Shown here: one piece after another, positions 55,535-63,940 of the stretch | How the letters are laid out: every line of letters begins with the position of its first letter | Numbering within the stretch: position 1 is the stretch's first letter | Assembly: GCA_024641705.1 (NCBI GenBank) | Contig: JAHECO010000001.1 | Coordinates: forward strand, 259,897-323,896 | DNA: 64,000 nt | Direction: 5' to 3' | Source of the DNA: Candidatus Kryptoniota bacterium | GTDB taxonomy: Bacteria > Bacteroidota > Ignavibacteria > Kryptoniales > JAKASW01 | Notes under the pieces: model-generated | What the model was told of the DNA's origin: nothing | Seen by the model: only the letters and a program-made list of their open reading frames with translations | Databases searched by the model: none | Made by a program: the position numbers and the translations under genes

Positions 55535-57031
55535 TTGCGGAGTAGTGTTGTGCAGAAGGGATCCGTGCAAGCGAAAAAGAAAACTGGCGGCGTCCGCGCT
55601 TGCAGGGCCGCCGTACGAGAAGTTGAAACAAGATACTTAGACTATCTCTCGGTAAATGAAGATCTCACAAGAGAGCTTGTCTCATTCCAGGCGAACAAGA
55701 AGGAACCTTTCTATCGCTGGTTGAAATTTAAAGAAGGTTTCTCTTCTAAACTCGTCCAATACTGCATTAATCGATTTCAGCCCTCGGTTCGGGCTACTCC
55801 AAGAATACTCGATCCGTTTGCCGGATCAGGGACAACACTTACTACAGCGACGAAGTTAGGATGGCGCGCTACGGGTATAGAGCTCTTGCCGGTCGGAACT
55901 GCCGCGATGAAGGCCCGGCTCAAAGCCGACGTCGTGAGCATCCCAATGTTTGAGCGTTGGGTTGAAGAACTCTCTTCGTGGAACTGGAACCAGAAGGGAA
56001 CTTATTCCTTCCCGCACCTCCGGATCACCGAGGGTGCTTTTCCAAAGTCGACCGAGTCCGCAATTTCAAGCTATATGATGTTCCTGGATCGCATCGATGA
56101 TCCGAATATGAGGTATCTTTTTTGGTTTGCTCTGTTATCGATACTTGAAGACGTGAGTTACACACGTAAGGACGGACAATACCTGAGATGGGACAGTAGA
56201 TCGGGAAGAGATCTGAAGTCCTCATTTGACAAGGGGTTGATTCCGGATTTTAAGCCCGCAATCCATCAGAAACTCGACATTATGCTTGAGGATATAAGGT
56301 GGCGCAACGGAGGATCATATTCCTCCAACGTTGAGATAATCGAGGCTTCTAATCTGGACATCATGCCGACTCTGACCGAGTCCTCATTTGACATGATCAT
56401 GACGTCGCCTCCGTACTGCAATCGCTACGATTATACCAGAACATATGCTCTCGAGCTCGCCTTCCTGGGGTATAGCGAGGGCGCGGTCAAATCACTTCGG
56501 CAGACCCTGGTCTCTGCAACAGTGGAGAACAAGAGCAAGCGGGCCTATCTCGAGGGACAATACCGACGAAAAAACCAGGCGGATAGGTTCGCTGCATCCG
56601 AAAACGCTTTTGAAAGTCACGATGCGCTTCAGCAGATTCTCGCGATGTTGAAACGTCTGCGCGAAAACAAAGAGCTGAATAACCCGAACATTCCGGGGAT
56701 GGTCGAGAATTACTTCTTTGAGATGAGTTGCCTCATCACTGAGATGGCACGAGTGCTTTCGCCGGGGGGTCGGGTTGTAATGATTAACGACAACGTTCAG
56801 TACCATGGGGTCGAGGTTCCCGTGGACATGATCCTTTCTGACTTCGCGCAAGGCGCCGGTTTAAGGGTCGACCAAATATGGGTCCTTCCTCGGGGCAAAG
56901 GGAACAGCAGCCAGCAGATGGGAATACACGGACGTAGGGAATTGCGGAAGTGCGTCTATGTCTGGTCCAAGCCGCAGAGTGGTGCACGATTGCAGGTATT
57001 TCATGGCAAAGGCAGGGAACGAGTACACTGA
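55535..57031 (+). CDS. type II DNA methyltransferase (amino-methyltransferase)
   Basis: Motif I 'ILDPFAGSGTTLTTATKLGWRATGIE' precedes motif IV 'DMIMTSPPYCNRYDYTRTYALELAF'. Confidence 0.88.
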   Translation: MRSSVVQKGSVQAKKKTGGVRACRAAVREVETRYLDYLSVNEDLTRELVSFQANKKEPFYRWLKFKEGFSSKLVQYCINRFQPSVRATPRILDPFAGSGTTLTTATKLGWRATGIELLPVGTAAMKARLKADVVSIPMFERWVEELSSWNWNQKGTYSFPHLRITEGAFPKSTESAISSYMMFLDRIDDPNMRYLFWFALLSILEDVSYTRKDGQYLRWDSRSGRDLKSSFDKGLIPDFKPAIHQKLDIMLEDIRWRNGGSYSSNVEIIEASNLDIMPTLTESSFDMIMTSPPYCNRYDYTRTYALELAFLGYSEGAVKSLRQTLVSATVENKSKRAYLEGQYRRKNQADRFAASENAFESHDALQQILAMLKRLRENKELNNPNIPGMVENYFFEMSCLITEMARVLSPGGRVVMINDNVQYHGVEVPVDMILSDFAQGAGLRVDQIWVLPRGKGNSSQQMGIHGRRELRKCVYVWSKPQSGARLQVFHGKGRERVH

Positions 57032-57977
57032 CGACCTTCGGAAGCTGAAGTCCCAACTCCTTGCCTCGACGCTCAAGGAGAAACGGGACGTTGCTGCCTT
57101 CAATGCAGTGAAGAAAACCAAAGCTCAGATCGATTGGGACTCGAGAAGCGATTTGATGATAGATGAGGATGTATGGAAGCATATTGTCAAACGCCTGGGG
57201 TACGATCCGAAAGAAGTCTTCTGCCACCCGAAAGTTTTGATTGAGCATCCCGCTACGGCTCTCTATTATCGCGGCCTTGCCGGTCTTTCTATCAAAGCCG
57301 CCAGGGACTATGTCGGAGCTATCGAGAATTTGGAGAGCGGGTCGGCCAAAGCAAGGCTCAGCGAAAGCAAAGCGCTTGCGATGGCGCGGACATACAACAC
57401 GTTTGTCTGCTCGATAATAAAGAACACGACCGACTGGACTCTGGAAGACGGCAAGCGAATGGTGATTGCAATGCTCGGAATCACCTTCGACGGTGTTATG
57501 CGAAACAAGGTTGGAGAGATTGCTGAGGAAAGGATTAGAACCCTGCTGGTGGAGTGGCTGGAATCAAAGAAGTTGATAGCCTGGTCGACACCTCCAAGCA
57601 TGATTCACAACAAGTCGCTCCAAAAGGAATACCAGCTTCGCGGCGGCGTGTACATGCAATTCGCCTCTGAGCCGGATGTTTCCTTCCTGAGGGACGGTGA
57701 GCTCATTGCGGTAGTGGAAATAAAGGGCGGGATCGACCCCGCCGGTGCTTTAGAGCGTTACGGTGCAGCGTTGAAATCTTTCGAGGATTCAGTTAAGAAG
57801 TCTCCAAAGTGCAAGACCTTCTATGTGGGTGGCGTCTTTACTGAAGAGCTGAAACGTCGGATGGACGCCGACAGGCTTGTCGAGAAGTCGTTCAGTGTGA
57901 TCGAGGTACTACAACAGCCTGCCGCTCGGGAGGAGTTTTTGAAGGAACTGTTTCATCATGCGCTGAGGGTGGTGTAG
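57003..57977 (+). CDS. type II restriction endonuclease, XcyI/XamI-like
   Basis: Overlaps the methylase 3' end; 'EVFCHPKVLIEHPATALYYRGLAGLSIKAA', PD-(D/E)xK-like 'EPDVSFLRDGELIAVVEIKGGIDPAGALERYGAA'. Confidence 0.72.
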   Translation: MAKAGNEYTDDLRKLKSQLLASTLKEKRDVAAFNAVKKTKAQIDWDSRSDLMIDEDVWKHIVKRLGYDPKEVFCHPKVLIEHPATALYYRGLAGLSIKAARDYVGAIENLESGSAKARLSESKALAMARTYNTFVCSIIKNTTDWTLEDGKRMVIAMLGITFDGVMRNKVGEIAEERIRTLLVEWLESKKLIAWSTPPSMIHNKSLQKEYQLRGGVYMQFASEPDVSFLRDGELIAVVEIKGGIDPAGALERYGAALKSFEDSVKKSPKCKTFYVGGVFTEELKRRMDADRLVEKSFSVIEVLQQPAAREEFLKELFHHALRVV

Positions 57978-58028
57978 TGTTATATAAAACGACACCTTCT
58001 GCGGTCTTCGTGAATAGTACCGCAGCTC

Positions 58029-58616
58029 TTGACGCAGGAAATAGAACTAATAAATAGAATGGAGCATAGAATGGTGGAAGTATTCACAATCTTGGCCATA
58101 ATCTTGGGTCCCATATTGGCCATCCAAGTAGAAAAACTGCTAGAAAAGAAACGTCAGGAAAAAGAAAGACGACTAGGAATTTTCAAAGTCTTAATGGTAA
58201 CTCGAGGCTCCGTTCTCTCGCAGGCACACGTGCAAGCACTAAATTCAATTGATATCGAATTCAATTCCGATAACGAAAAAGATAAGAATGTCAGGAATGC
58301 GTGGAAGGCATATCTGGATGAGCTGAACCATTTTCCAAATGATGGCAGCGAGGAAGACAAGAAAAGATGGAACGAAAGAGTTAATGGCCTTCTCGTTGAA
58401 TTACTAATGGTAATGTCTGTGGCTGTCGGATACGACTTTGATAAGACGTACATCAATCGGACAGCGTACGTACCTCAGAAATATGGAGAAACTGATATAG
58501 AATTGGATGTGATAAGAAAAGCGTTTGTTCAGGTTCTGGTTGGAAAAGCATCAATTCCAATTAGGGTTGTCCAACCCGAGGGATTACAGTTTACGTCGTC
58601 TGCAAATTCAGAGTAA
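58029..58616 (+). CDS. DUF6680-like membrane-anchored protein
   Basis: N-terminal TM 'VFTILAIILGPILAIQVEKLLEKKRQEKERRLGIFKVLMVTRGSVLSQAHVQALNSIDIEF'; family from memory. Confidence 0.6.
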   Translation: MTQEIELINRMEHRMVEVFTILAIILGPILAIQVEKLLEKKRQEKERRLGIFKVLMVTRGSVLSQAHVQALNSIDIEFNSDNEKDKNVRNAWKAYLDELNHFPNDGSEEDKKRWNERVNGLLVELLMVMSVAVGYDFDKTYINRTAYVPQKYGETDIELDVIRKAFVQVLVGKASIPIRVVQPEGLQFTSSANSE

Positions 58617-58681
58617 AAGGGCTTATGAGTATTGGTCGTCCCCGAGAATGAGCGGAAAATGTCATTCCGGGTATAATACAG

Positions 58682-58706
58682 ATCCGTCCATGAATCGTGG
58701 ACGGAT
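58682..58706. repeat. Perfect 9-bp stem hairpin
   Basis: ATCCGTCCA-TGAATCG-TGGACGGAT. Confidence 0.6.
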
Positions 58707-58857
58707 GGGCGCGTGGTGGAATCTTCTGCGGACTACGTAATAAGATAGATGAGGGAACCCCCCCGCATAAGATTAATCATGTCGTTGAATCATCTCGGTC
58801 CGATCTATAGTTAACAGACTTCTTTTCGCCAAATGTCTTATCTTTGGTTAGAACAGC

Positions 58858-59148
58858 ATGAACAACGTCGATTTCAATAGCGCCAAAATTCAAGCTATCT
58901 GCAAGAAGTATCACGTAGAGACCTTGCGCTTATTCGGTTCAACGGCCCGCGGCGAATCTGGACCGGATAGCGATATCGATCTTCTGGTTGCATTTTCAGA
59001 GCCGATATCACTGCTTCAATTCGTTGGGATGGGACGAGAAATGTCCGTTGCTTTAGGGCGCAAAGTTGATCTCCAGACTACCGAATCGATCAGCCCTTAT
59101 TTGAGAACTCGGATTCTGAGAGAGTCCCGCTCGGTCTATGCAGCGTGA
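58858..59148 (+). CDS. MNT-domain nucleotidyltransferase (MntA-type antitoxin)
   Basis: 'LRLFGSTARGESGPDSDIDLLVAF' (GSx10DxD-type motif). Confidence 0.9.
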   Translation: MNNVDFNSAKIQAICKKYHVETLRLFGSTARGESGPDSDIDLLVAFSEPISLLQFVGMGREMSVALGRKVDLQTTESISPYLRTRILRESRSVYAA

Positions 59149-59478
59149 CGATTCAGTCTATATCTGAAGCATATACGTGACGCGATCTTGACAATCCAAG
59201 GTTACACAAAAGGGGTTTCCGCCGCTCGCTTTCAAAAAGATAAACTCATCCGGGACGGAGTAATCCGACAAATCGAGATCATCGGGGAGGCGACCAAGCG
59301 AATTTCCGGTCAAACTCGCGAAGAAAATCCGGGTGTTCCCTGGGAGAATATTGCTGGAATGCGGGACAAATTGATTCATGATTATTTCGGTGTCGATGTT
59401 GAAAAGGTCTGGTTGACTGTGCAAAACGACATTCCTCTTCTCAAAAAGGAAGTCAACAGAATTCTCAAGAATCTCTGA
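59138..59478 (+). pseudogene. HepT-like HEPN toxin, apparently frameshifted near its N-terminus (or using an alternative start at about 59188)
   Basis: '[22 protein letters not shown]...' is continuous only if 2 bp of TATAT at 59157-59163 are removed; C-part carries Rx4HxY '[10 protein letters not shown]'. Confidence 0.65.
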
Positions 59479-59557
59479 GTTCTCACATAGTCAGAAAATG
59501 CCCGAGTTGGAATCCACAGTCTGCTGGAAACAATGACCCGCAATGCCCCGCGCTCGT

Positions 59558-59684
59558 GGCTGTCCAGAAAGTCTTGTCTGTCATGCTGAACGAAGTGAAG
59601 CATCCATTTTTCAGAACGAATAAGTGGATTCTTCAGTCGCTCCGCTCCTTCAGAATGACATTTTCCTTGTTTTGGGACAACCTC
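59558..59684. repeat. MITE-like repeat, copy 1 (127 bp)
   Basis: Base-for-base identical to 62035-62161; imperfect palindrome with terminal GRGGYTGTCC-like ends. Confidence 0.85.
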
Positions 59685-59901
59685 TACAGGGGTGGGTACC
59701 AACCCAGACTTAACATGTGTGCCGCCATATCACCTGCTCACTTGTTTCAGCGGTATTTTTGTCCGTTCCTCCATGCCTCTCAATTCATCTGTCCGCAAAT
59801 CGTGATGTTGATGAACCGACGAACTGACAAGTCTCTTCGTTGCGGGATTAGGTGGTGGGTACTGCGCGCTTTCTTTCTTTTGATGTTTTCACACACCTCT
59901 A

Positions 59902-59924
59902 AATCCCCTCTCAAGAGGGGACTT
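59902..59924. repeat. Short palindromic repeat, copy A (left of DUF559 gene)
   Basis: AAATCCCCTCT-CA-AGAGGGGACTT. Confidence 0.65.
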
Positions 59925-59940
59925 CAATCATACTAGGATA

Positions 59941-60324
59941 TCAGATGTTCTCTGCTGTATTGGTGTGTTCATCTATCCATTCTTCGATCGCAGCGACCAC
60001 CCCGTCGAGATTAGTCTTAACATCCGAATCAAGAAATCTGAGAAAATGGACCCCCAACGACTCGATCCTCTTCTGTCTGTGCTCATCGTAGGCTTCTTTG
60101 CCCATGTGGCTGAAACCGTCGATCTCGATCGCGAGGAAAAGATCTGGACAATAAAAGTCGACGATGTACTTATCGATAGGCTTTTGCCTGTGGAAGTCAT
60201 ACCCGCGCACTTGCTTCCCCTTGAGAGCACCCCAGAGTAACACTTCGGAAAGTGTGCTGCTGTTGCGAAGATTGCGGGCCAGCTTTTTCAGCTTCGGATT
60301 GTACGGAATTATTTTTCTCCGCAT
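59941..60324 (-). CDS. DUF559 (Vsr-like endonuclease fold) protein
   Basis: 'NLRNSSTLSEVLLWGALKGKQVRGYDFHRQKPIDKYIVDFYCPDLFLAIEIDGFSH'. Confidence 0.92.
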   Translation of the reverse strand: MRRKIIPYNPKLKKLARNLRNSSTLSEVLLWGALKGKQVRGYDFHRQKPIDKYIVDFYCPDLFLAIEIDGFSHMGKEAYDEHRQKRIESLGVHFLRFLDSDVKTNLDGVVAAIEEWIDEHTNTAENI

Positions 60325-60348
60325 GGGTCGATTCCTTACATATCCATA

Positions 60349-60373
60349 GATCCCTTCTCAAGGGGAGAATTTG
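60349..60373. repeat. Short palindromic repeat, copy B (right of DUF559 gene)
   Basis: AGATCCCTTCTCAAGGGGAGAATTT, a degenerate match to copy A. Confidence 0.5.
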
Positions 60374-60377
60374 AAAC

Positions 60378-60401
60378 GGCGGAAGCCTCTCGGCCTCCGC
60401 C
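60378..60401 (-). terminator. Hairpin downstream of 60422-61117 gene
   Basis: GGCGGAGGCC-GAGA-GGCTTCCGCC followed by GTTT on the minus strand. Confidence 0.5.
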
Positions 60402-60421
60402 ATCCCATTGGTTCTCTTTCA

Positions 60422-61117
60422 TTACTTCTGTGTCGTTGTTTGCTGTTGCTGATCCGACGCCGGCGGTTTCGGCGCGGCCTTGCCACGCCCCTTCGGGATC
60501 GGCTTGAACTCCTCCAGCACTGCCTTGTTCTTCGCGAATACTACCTGTGCGAGCTTCCTTGCCTTGAAGATCTCTTCCTTCAAGACAGAGAGGGCTGCAT
60601 CTCGTGTGACCGTTGAAGCGTTTCGCAGCTTCTTAGCATTCTCCTGTGAAGCATCTGCAGCAACAAGCGCCCCGTAGACAGTTGACAGCTCGCTCAGGTC
60701 ATCCTGAGTCAGCCCGTTCGCGAGAAGTTCGACGCTGTATTTTCCCGCCAAACCAGTGAAGTACTCCAGCATCGTGACGAGTCTTCCCACATTCCTCGGC
60801 TTATCAGTTCCGACCTTGAACTCCTTCAGCCTCACTTTATCCCGGCCGAAAGCTGCTTTAGCGGCGTTCTGGAATTTTGTGATCATCGCTATCGATGCAT
60901 CGATAGCCACCTCCTGGTCCTGCGTCTTTTGCAGCAATGCTGCTTGCGCCGCCTTCTGCGCGGCATCCTTCTTAAGCAGATCGTCGAGCGCCGCATCAAA
61001 CTTGCCGACCCTAGCCTCGCTGTAGCCCTTGGCCGCTAACTCGGCTTTGTACTTTTCCATTGGGCCCGTTCGAAAGGCGTTTGCATCCTGCACAACATCA
61101 TCGACTTCGATTGGCAT
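60422..61117 (-). CDS. hypothetical helical protein with internal duplication
   Basis: 231 aa, Ala/Lys-rich; two similar blocks ending 'FGRDKVRLKEFKVG' and 'FAKNKAVLEEFKPIPKG'. Confidence 0.7.
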   Translation of the reverse strand: MPIEVDDVVQDANAFRTGPMEKYKAELAAKGYSEARVGKFDAALDDLLKKDAAQKAAQAALLQKTQDQEVAIDASIAMITKFQNAAKAAFGRDKVRLKEFKVGTDKPRNVGRLVTMLEYFTGLAGKYSVELLANGLTQDDLSELSTVYGALVAADASQENAKKLRNASTVTRDAALSVLKEEIFKARKLAQVVFAKNKAVLEEFKPIPKGRGKAAPKPPASDQQQQTTTQK

Positions 61118-61482
61118 AGTATTCCTCCTGCTTTTGTTTCATGTTGCTCATTGTATATGATTCCCATCCCGGGAACATATCCGGACAAAGCAGAATCACA
61201 CGAACATCGGTACTAAGGCTGGTACTTGTTGTTCTCTCGAAAACAGGTTTTCTGGGCTTAAACCCGATCTACTCCATCACTATCCATTTACTCCGCGCGA
61301 ACCAATCGCGCCTGAAGATGATTACCTCATCTTTGCCCTAATATGCAAAGGAAAACAAAAAAGTCAAATCTTTCCTCACAGGGGCCAACGTCGGTTGCCC
61401 GGAATGCCTCAAAACAGTTCAGGGATGCACTTTTGTGCCTCGGGAAAACTTTTCGGTTCTTACCCCAACCATTTCAAAAATT

Positions 61483-61671
61483 CCCGCAAGCACTTCCCGG
61501 TTCCCTGCGAGTGCTTGCTCGACCCCTGCAACCTCCTTGGGAATTCCCTCAAGTCCGTCCGAGGTTCCCAAGAGAATTTCTGCACTTCCTGCAATCGTTC
61601 TCCCAATTCCGCTAAGCGTTTGGACCCGTCCGGCAGGTTCTTCAGAAATTCCCACGACTGCTCGCTTGCCC
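61483..61671. repeat. 21-bp period tandem array, 9 units without indels
   Basis: Units begin with CCN at 61483, 61504, 61525, 61546, 61567, 61588, 61609, 61630, 61651; minus frame encodes Gly-anchored heptads GIGRTIA-GSAEILL-GTSDGLE-GIPKEVA-GVEQALA-GNREVLA. Confidence 0.85.
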
Positions 61672-61806
61672 CTCTCTCGAAATGTTTTCTGAGAAACAAG
61701 GAGACTGCCATTTTCGCGCAGCCTCTTCCCGCCAACGGAGGGGACAACAAAACGTCGGGGTAGGCAGGTATATCACAAGAAGTGCACGAGCGCCCCAATC
61801 CTGTCA

Positions 61807-61843
61807 TTCCCGCCCCGCACTGCGGGGTAAACTCGGGCGGGAA
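61807..61843. repeat. dRS3-like palindromic element (nested)
   Basis: TTCCCGCCC ... GGGCGGGAA with inner CCCGC-ACT-GCGGG. Confidence 0.6.
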
Positions 61844-61949
61844 CAACAAGTCTGAGGGCAGGCATCCGGCCCAATATAGCGTAACCCCTCGATATTCAAA
61901 GAAGCGTTGATGGTGTGAAGGCCCGCGGAGTTCCTCTACCTCCTATGTC

Positions 61950-61969
61950 ATTCCCGCGAAAGCGGGAAT
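61950..61969. repeat. dRS3-like palindromic element
   Basis: ATTCCCGC-GAAA-GCGGGAAT. Confidence 0.7.
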
Positions 61970-62034
61970 CCACCGTCTAACTAAAGAAGACACTTGTTCT
62001 ATCCAAGGCATTCAATTACATGTGTTGTATGGGA

Positions 62035-62161
62035 GGCTGTCCAGAAAGTCTTGTCTGTCATGCTGAACGAAGTGAAGCATCCATTTTTCAGAACGAATAA
62101 GTGGATTCTTCAGTCGCTCCGCTCCTTCAGAATGACATTTTCCTTGTTTTGGGACAACCTC
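62035..62161. repeat. MITE-like repeat, copy 2 (127 bp)
   Basis: Identical to 59558-59684. Confidence 0.85.
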
Positions 62162-62350
62162 AACTCCGGCGGGAATCCAGCCTGTACAAAAAGAGAATCT
62201 GATTGAAACACCTCCTCTCCCCAAAAGTACGGGTTCACGCTCCCCACTTTCGCGGGGACAAGTTCCGCGGGAACTACAAATGACATTGATGCAGTACATA
62301 CCGAGTTTCGGGATCAACGAAGCACGATCCCTTCGCCAGCCAGCCCCGCC

Positions 62351-63403
62351 CTACTCCCCCAGCTTCTCGAACGTCAGCAGCTCCGTCATCTCCGGCACGA
62401 GCGGCTTACGCTCGAAGTAGTTGAACCTCCTGCTTGACCGCTCGGGGAGGTAGACCTTTCCGACACTCTTGTAGTTGCTTTCCAGGAACAGTCGCTGGAC
62501 TTCGTAAGGGTAGTCTGCGACCCCGGTCTCTCCGACCTGAGGAGTCACCACGACGGACACCCTGCCGCGCACCTTCAATATCCTGTTCGCCTCCCTGTAG
62601 ACAGTCTTGAACTTCATCTTGAAGTTGGAGAGCGCAACCGTCAGGTCCTCGGTCCCGGAATAGAATTCCGCCGGGAGATCGAGAAAGACAAAGTCGGCCG
62701 AGTTCGTTTCAGCCGGTATGCCGGTCAGGAAGATGTTGTTCTGCTTTATGCGCTCGTCGGACGGTTCCGAATCGTAAAGCCTGTAGCGCCGGTCGCCGAA
62801 ATACGGTATCTTGTCTATTACGTCGCCGAGTGTGCCGCTGCCTGCGAACGGGTCGACGATAAGCGCTCCCGCGTTCGAGTAATGGTAGATAGCGTTGGCG
62901 ACGATTTGTCCGGCGATTCTCCCTTTGTAACCCGGCTTTCCGAAGCGCGGGTCGGCTACCTCGAAGCTCCAGACATTCGTATTTCTCAAGTCGAATCCGA
63001 ATTTCGTCCGCTCCGATTCCCGCTCCGTTAGTGTGTCCTCGCGGATCTTCTTCCTGAGCTCTGCGATGGTCCACTTGTTCTGGATAGCGGCCTTCTCGTA
63101 TTCCCTCCGTTTGTCATCGTCGCCGACCTTGGTGGCGAGTTCGAAGTAGAAACTTTCTGGAAGCTTCCTCTTCTTCATATCGGGGTAGTAGGTGAAATAG
63201 GCCTGACACTGCCTGAGGAGGCTCGGCTGAAACTTAAAACCGGGGTAAGACGAGAGGACCTTGTAAAGCTCCTCTTCGGACAACTTGTTTGATTTCGCGT
63301 AGGGAAGGATCTTTTCTACGATGAATCTCCCCACATCCCAGAAGCTGTCGACGGAAAGGGAATTCAGTTTTTCGGCCAGTTTCTGCAGCGCATCGTTTTT
63401 CAT
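62351..63403 (-). CDS. DUF1016-N-like domain fused to class I DNA methyltransferase-like domain
   Basis: N-term 'FWDVGRFIVEKILPYAKSNKLSEEELYKVLSSYPGFKFQPSLLRQCQAYFTYYP'; motif I 'ALIVDPFAGSGTLGDVIDKI'; motif IV position reads 'FVFLDLPAEFY'; SD GGAGGGG before ATG at 63403. Confidence 0.72.
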   Translation of the reverse strand: MKNDALQKLAEKLNSLSVDSFWDVGRFIVEKILPYAKSNKLSEEELYKVLSSYPGFKFQPSLLRQCQAYFTYYPDMKKRKLPESFYFELATKVGDDDKRREYEKAAIQNKWTIAELRKKIREDTLTERESERTKFGFDLRNTNVWSFEVADPRFGKPGYKGRIAGQIVANAIYHYSNAGALIVDPFAGSGTLGDVIDKIPYFGDRRYRLYDSEPSDERIKQNNIFLTGIPAETNSADFVFLDLPAEFYSGTEDLTVALSNFKMKFKTVYREANRILKVRGRVSVVVTPQVGETGVADYPYEVQRLFLESNYKSVGKVYLPERSSRRFNYFERKPLVPEMTELLTFEKLGE

Positions 63404-63490
63404 GTCATGCCCCTCCTTTTTTTTGCACACGGAGAAAGCTGAAAGAAACGTATTCCGCTGTAAAAGGCTATCCCGCGATTTTCCCGGCGG

Positions 63491-63940
63491 TCATCTCGCG
63501 CTTTTCAGCGGAGTCTTTGAAGTGTCCTTCCAGCTCCGTATATAAGACACTATGTCTGATGTCAATGTCCCCGGCGTGAAAAGTTCTCCGACGCCGAGTT
63601 CTTTCAAAGCCTTGATATCCTTGTCCGGGATTATCCCGCCTCCGAAGAGGAGGACGTCGCCGAGTCCCTTCGCGTTCATGAGGGAGCGAACCTTCGGGAA
63701 GATGGTCATATGGGCACCGCTGAGAATGCTTATGCCGATCACGTCGACATCTTCCTGCAGCGCCGCTTCGACGATCATTTCGGGAGTTTGCCGAAGGCCC
63801 GTGTAGATAACTTCCATCCCCGCATCTCTCAGCGCCGCGGCAACGACCTTCGCTCCGCGGTCATGTCCGTCCAGTCCCGCCTTCGCGATCAGGACGCGGA
63901 TTTTCTGCCTGCCGTTGCCGGAATCGTTCCGACTTTCCAT
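63491..63940 (-). CDS. cobalamin B12-binding protein (methylmalonyl-CoA mutase C-terminal domain type)
   Basis: '[41 protein letters not shown]' (DxHxxG) and '[29 protein letters not shown]'. Confidence 0.93.

Follow-up and report, generated by a model that had tools for sequence, protein, structure and literature searches.

Gene content and repeats of the locus

The window, the whole 64,000-nucleotide stretch of DNA that was analysed, belongs to a genome of 4.62 Mb in 95 contigs. Towards one end of it, two short direct repeats enclose a 2.35-kb segment that contains, as the sequence-only reading had indicated, a DUF559 gene and one further protein. The first is a DUF559 (PF04480) nuclease-like gene on the reverse strand (59941–60324; E = 4.9e-29), which we read as an independent, hairpin-bracketed gene and not as cargo; the second is a 231-aa protein (60422–61117) with weak similarity to the PQLLE family, below the model cut-off. 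Beside the DUF559 gene lies a hairpin with an 8-bp stem, TCCCCTCTCAAGAGGGGA (59904–59921), of a type that appears to have been replaced by copies of the repeat at several other sites, and on the far side of the gene is a degenerate direct copy of it, TCCCTTCTCAAGGGGAGA (60351–60368), equal at 15 of 18 positions as judged by eye. A dispersed palindromic repeat, TGTCATTCCCGCGAAAGCGGGAATCCA (61946–61972, forward strand), has near-identical copies elsewhere in the genome and is not part of the flanking elements. A 21-bp array described between the copies was not recovered by Tandem Repeats Finder, even at a score of 30, and is at most very degenerate. No Rfam family matched within 58800–63500, and the earlier observation that no transposase lies in the window was borne out. 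To the left, positions 55535–59478 form a likely defence region comprising a DNA methyltransferase, an XcyI-like restriction endonuclease, DUF6680 and a nucleotidyltransferase/HepT toxin–antitoxin pair.

The two repeats had been described as identical over 127 bp (59558–59684 and 62035–62161), and this 100% identity was reproduced. Comparison with other copies in the genome places the true ends two bases further out, giving a MITE of 129 bp with the ends GAGGCTGTCC...GGACAACCTC. Copy 1 (59556–59684, forward strand) reads GTGGCTGTCC...GGGACAACCTC, and copy 2 (62033–62161, forward strand) reads GAGGCTGTCC...GGGACAACCTC; the latter equals the family consensus, and the former carries a single mismatch to it at position 2, so that the first bases are GTGG and GAGG, respectively. 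The imperfect palindrome noted earlier is evident as end-to-end pairing when the element is folded as one DNA strand, with a folding energy of −21.2 kcal/mol versus −13.2 ± 2.7 kcal/mol for shuffled sequences (z = −3.0). Spurious repeat-derived open reading frames, as anticipated, run through both copies. A search of viral contigs gave no exact match to the left part of the MITE.

A 129-bp repeat family and its IS1182-family partner

The repeat is neither limited to this pair nor without consistent ends, two of the outcomes that the sequence-only reading had set against its proposal of a recently spread MITE; approximately 70 near-identical copies with sharp ends are present. This count comprises 68 left ends (within one or two mismatches) and two right ends at contig ends, and is approximate and a lower bound because several copies sit at contig ends. 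Copies occur at or across the ends of contigs C6, C33, C37, C50, C53, C73 and C91, where breaks in the assembly coincide with the repeat. At least 40 copies are 100% identical over 129 bp; the consensus sequence itself is found in 41 of 63 complete copies, and mean divergence is 0.4%. In the 12 other genomes of the genus, the only relatives are diverged and number one or two copies (best identities of 84%, 78% and 81% in three genomes), and none has a comparable expansion. From these sequence comparisons, the expansion reads as a recent, lineage-specific burst. Flanking sequences are unrelated at nearly every copy. Two copies (L007 and L093) have related flanks that represent a duplicated segment carrying the MITE, and two others (L022 and L090) entered another repeat at the same position, between CCCGACRA and GTAGTCGGGG.

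A transposase with matching ends, which the sequence-only reading had suggested seeking elsewhere in the genome, is encoded by IS1182-family elements on contigs 91 and 49. The contig-91 element (1,768 bp, with an intact-looking transposase) has the ends GAGGTTGTCCAAAAAG...CCTTGTTATTGGACAGCCTC, and the contig-49 element (1,762 bp) has the ends GAGGCTGTCCCAAAAG...CCTTGTTTTAGGACAACCAC. Set against these, the MITE ends GAGGCTGTCCAGAAAG...CCTTGTTTTGGGACAACCTC match on both the left and the right and in the same orientation, the right-hand match including the inner ACAAGG (read inward). The two transposases are 84% identical, and that of contig 49 scores 399 bits against NF033551, the NCBI model for IS1182, for which the cut-off is 270. 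The contig-49 transposase (L089 3257–4876) is a 539-aa frame that is intact except for a G in place of the second catalytic Asp (VVVGGSAYG, versus VVVGDSAYG in contig 91 and ADS in a distant third copy), whereas the contig-91 transposase retains both Asp residues and the Glu; the contig-91 copy is therefore the likely source of activity, as judged from these residues. Equally close transposases were absent from the other 12 genomes of the genus, so that among the 13 this genome (G000) alone has them, as it alone has the MITE expansion. Terminal inverted repeats shared with IS1182 elements, short length, high copy number and the absence of a transposase gene of its own are the features of an IS1182-family MITE.

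The interior of the element appears to have a separate history. By itself it is a dispersed repeat in another genome of the same class (G034), and it resembles the dispersed TGTCATTCTGAA repeats. A MITE-type start, consisting of an IS1182-like left end followed by TGTCATKCTGAA, was detected in Ignavibacteria MAGs, two Flavobacterium, Marinilabilia, another Bacteroidetes MAG and a Neomarinimicrobiota MAG, in several of which a closing end could also be recognised. The MITE seems to be chimeric, combining the ends of an IS with a palindromic repeat of older origin.

Hairpins at the insertion sites

Across 56 independent insertions, direct repeats abutting the element were not in excess over shuffled flanks, that is, no target-site duplication was found. 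The same 56 insertions showed flank-to-flank complementarity at the junction (36% versus 26% for reshuffled flanks over 8 positions; z = 5.0). We searched approximately half of the genome (2.4 Mb, with overlaps) for unfilled sites, in which both flanks are present without the element; the sites so obtained are paralogues within the same genome, several of which belong to dispersed repeats that contain hairpins in any case. Eight insertions were assessable, neither window copy being among them: seven MITE insertions and the contig-91 IS. In each, a hairpin of 17–27 nt stands at the junction of the sister site and is absent from the filled site, and all eight removed segments passed a simple hairpin test for which the pass rate was 0.40% among random intergenic segments and 0.25% among random genomic ones.

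The removed segments differ from site to site. They are ATGCTGCGAAGCGGCAT between GTTTCACCGCAA and CTCCCGCCC (L122); CTCGAATCTCGGATTCGAG between GTAGTGTCCTAAT and AGGTTAAG (L115, where the right side is nearly identical for 350 bp); AGAGCCGCGGCAGCGGCTC between GTCATTGCGA and GAAGCAATCC (L013); GTCCGTCCCGACAAAGGAGGGACGGAC between CATCGCGA and GTGGCGATCCC (L008); and CCGACTCAGCAAGCTGAGTCGGGA between AACCTTC and TGCTCTATCC (L003, in a pseudo-tRNA-Arg pair, at the place occupied by the anticodon arm in the intact neighbouring tRNA gene). At two sites the right flank has diverged and the left junction alone is exact: CTTCCCCTTGGAGGGGAAG between CCATCCTAAC and GG (L084), and CCCCTCCTTCGATAAGGAGGGG between CCCTAA and AGC (L128). 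The contig-91 IS corresponds to a sister site with CCCCTCCTTATCAAAGGAGGGG between AAGCT and TTAGGGGTGGTTG. Several left flanks of the MITE end in a CACCCTAA-like sequence that is followed elsewhere in the genome by C/T-rich hairpins, such as CCCTCTCC...GGAGAGGG. Seven further two-sided flank matches (L016, L022, L027, L029, L100, L103 and L108) were weak and were dropped as chance. Two marks of stem-loop-replacing transposition are therefore seen here—no target-site duplication, and removal of an inverted-repeat target at the eight sister sites—with one counter-example, L002, in which a hairpin next to the MITE copy persists.

Two related observations concern a tRNA cluster and a repeat family. 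On contig 93 (L003 1463–1913), an intact tRNA-Arg(TCT) gene is followed by two degenerate copies in tandem; in place of the anticodon arm, one has an unrelated 26-nt hairpin and the other the MITE. Members of the GTCATTGCGA-x-GAAGCAATCC repeat family (L195 13035–13477, L133 6523 and 14059, and L200 11599) have different and unrelated hairpins at one shared central position, a pattern that looks like the swapping of one hairpin for another.

We consider it highly probable that the repeat is a non-autonomous 129-bp derivative of an IS1182-family element, a MITE that lands by hairpin replacement, that the two window copies are independent of each other and that the DUF559 gene is not cargo. This reading builds on features established by sequence comparison: ends shared with the IS, about 70 near-identical copies, no target-site duplication, and hairpin loss at eight clear sites. 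We infer the trans action of the transposase and the chemistry of replacement. An IS1182 transposase, most likely that of the contig-91 copy, would act in trans on both MITE ends and recognise its target by the capacity to form a hairpin or cruciform; the MITE would be joined at the feet of the hairpin, which would be lost. A target-site duplication would be lacking because insertion replaces the hairpin.

The strongest competing explanation is an ordinary MITE insertion with a preference for palindromic or compositionally biased intergenic sites, in which the loss of hairpins is an artefact of paralogous repeats that differ mid-way. Some sister sites do fall in the GTCATTGCGA-x-GAAGCAATCC family, the middle hairpin of which varies between copies anyway. 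However, those outside this family comprise a tandem pseudo-tRNA pair, a duplicated stretch that is identical over most of 350 bp on one side, and hairpins surrounding the DUF559 gene of contig 91; no target-site duplication is seen, the flanks are complementary over 56 insertions, and IS1272, of the same family, behaves by hairpin replacement (PMC5678879). We regard this explanation as improbable.

The sequence-only reading had also raised the possibility that the pair acts as a mobilisable unit, which would make the two copies and the 2.35-kb segment a composite element carrying the DUF559 gene. Such an arrangement has precedent in the IS1272-based composite transposons TnSha1 and TnSha2 (PMC4923244), and the gene is indeed bracketed by two direct copies, but the spacing is that expected by chance: two adjacent spacings below 2.6 kb were seen versus 2.7 expected for about 70 copies over 4.62 Mb. 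In addition, the window copies differ at position 2 and therefore probably stem from different sub-lineages, the variant of copy 1 recurring in three other copies; the inner and outer flanks of the pair show no match by eye; and each of the four remaining DUF559 genes near an IS or MITE has a single copy next to it. As a unit, the segment was not recovered from any of the 12 same-genus genomes, where the whole region is variable. Spacing, end variants and the single copies beside other DUF559 genes led us to reject a composite transposon, which we judge very improbable. Orthologous empty sites for the window copies were likewise not found in the 12 genomes, because the stretch 58000–62350 is largely not shared with them; only the adjoining gene (62351–63430) is widely conserved, in 11 of the 12 and at approximately 72–77% identity. 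Least probable of all is a REP/BIME-like structural repeat kept at high copy number by gene conversion without transposition, which would suit the palindromic form, the extreme homogeneity and an interior like that of the dispersed TGTCATTCTGAA repeats, but is at odds with sharp ends common to a resident IS, flanks unrelated at nearly every copy, the absence of the family from most same-genus genomes and the loss of the target hairpin. Under the favoured hairpin-replacing reading, the window copies would be two independent insertions of this kind, and the surroundings of the DUF559 gene, with their flanking C/T-rich hairpins, would offer landing sites for the element.

DUF559 genes, hairpins and known systems

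Turning to the gene between the copies, five of the seven DUF559 genes in the genome have an IS or MITE copy no more than 300 bp away, and for four of these the distance is approximately 80 bp or less; among the ORFs of contig 53, taken as background, the corresponding figure is 10 of 351 (binomial P ~4e-7). This closeness is probably due to hairpins. One or more perfect hairpins, 8 bp or longer, lie within about 350 bp of 30 of 32 DUF559 genes in the genus and of 24 of 26 in a phylum-wide sample. In the genus, the density is 2.7–2.8 perfect hairpins per kb within 350 bp versus 0.24 per kb further out; with the phylum sample included, the values are 2.7–2.8 versus 0.24–0.34. The flanks often carry the same C/T-rich hairpin on both sides (L222–L286 and L344–L355, and 59904–60368 in the window), and direct repeats flank 24 of 58 DUF559 genes, versus 5 of 150 mismatched pairs and 6 of 200 random segments. 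HepT genes from the same 13 genomes, used as controls because they form an accessory family comparable to DUF559, had hairpins at 2 of 13 (0.31 versus 0.44 per kb) and no flanking direct repeats. The association extends to 12 plasmid DUF559 loci from Alphaproteobacteria, Deinococcus and Cyanobacteria (2.4 versus 0 hairpins per kb; nine with at least one). On a Deinococcus psychrotolerans plasmid (L355 1416–1915), inverted repeats of 56 bp, identical at 55 of 56 positions, enclose a DUF559 gene between paaD and paaZ, giving the appearance of a minimal mobile unit lodged in an operon. Where a DUF559 domain forms part of an open frame of more than 1,000 aa (L224 contig 23, L249, L260 and L261), C/T-rich hairpins again immediately precede or follow it, an arrangement that would fit acquisition of the nuclease domain by way of such a hairpin.

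DUF559 has been placed among the PD-(D/E)XK nucleases (PMC12907096), and it has been described as Vsr-like and as a component of recombination hotspots, with no mention of hairpins in those descriptions; our literature search found no repeat association of DUF559. The association between DUF559 and hairpins is measured here, and we hypothesise that the nuclease spreads with its hairpins. More specifically, and tentatively, DUF559 might be a hairpin-bracketed mobile, homing-like gene whose PD-(D/E)XK nuclease recognises or cuts its flanking C/T-rich hairpins as RAYT serves REPs, with IS1182 elements using the same hairpins as landing pads. Hairpin bracketing across several phyla would provide a concrete hypothesis for a nuclease family of largely unknown role. 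The parallel with REP/RAYT systems (PMC3733652, PMC6006769) lies in a nuclease-type gene bracketed by palindromic repeats; the enzymes differ, RAYT being an HUH (Y1) enzyme and DUF559 a PD-(D/E)XK nuclease. As for the 129-bp repeat itself, its ends are accounted for by the IS1182 partner.

The 129-bp element shares with the bacterial MITEs RUP, NEMIS, Nezha and ERIC (PMC3733652) a short, non-coding and foldable sequence, terminal inverted repeats in common with an IS, and high copy number; it differs in showing no target-site duplication and in taking the place of a hairpin. A literature search returned no IS1182-type MITE described as hairpin-replacing and nothing relevant on MITEs in Ignavibacteria. 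In the papers found, stem-loop-replacing transposition is represented by staphylococcal cases of a single IS. With about 70 insertions, and sister sites for some of them, the exchange of a hairpin for an element becomes testable on many insertions and with a very small substrate, and it would provide a route by which hairpins are lost from genomes, including tRNA arms, the ends of other mobile elements and possibly terminators.

The closest known counterpart is IS1272, an IS1182-family element of staphylococci that targets hairpins lacking a sequence consensus, produces no target duplication and removes the stem-loop bluntly (PMC5678879; PMC4923244); palindromic targets of other IS1182 members are treated in a review cited in PMC4923244, as that paper reports it. 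The system described here resembles IS1272/TnSha1 of Staphylococcus in its transposase family—assigned to IS1182 by NF033551 only, without alignment to IS1272—and in the absence of target-site duplications, the consensus-free hairpin target and the loss of that hairpin (PMC5678879, PMC4923244). It differs in that the mover is mostly a gene-less 129-bp MITE, in about 70 copies and in an unrelated phylum. It is apparently a new natural example of stem-loop-replacing transposition, carried out by a MITE in a phylum other than that of IS1272.
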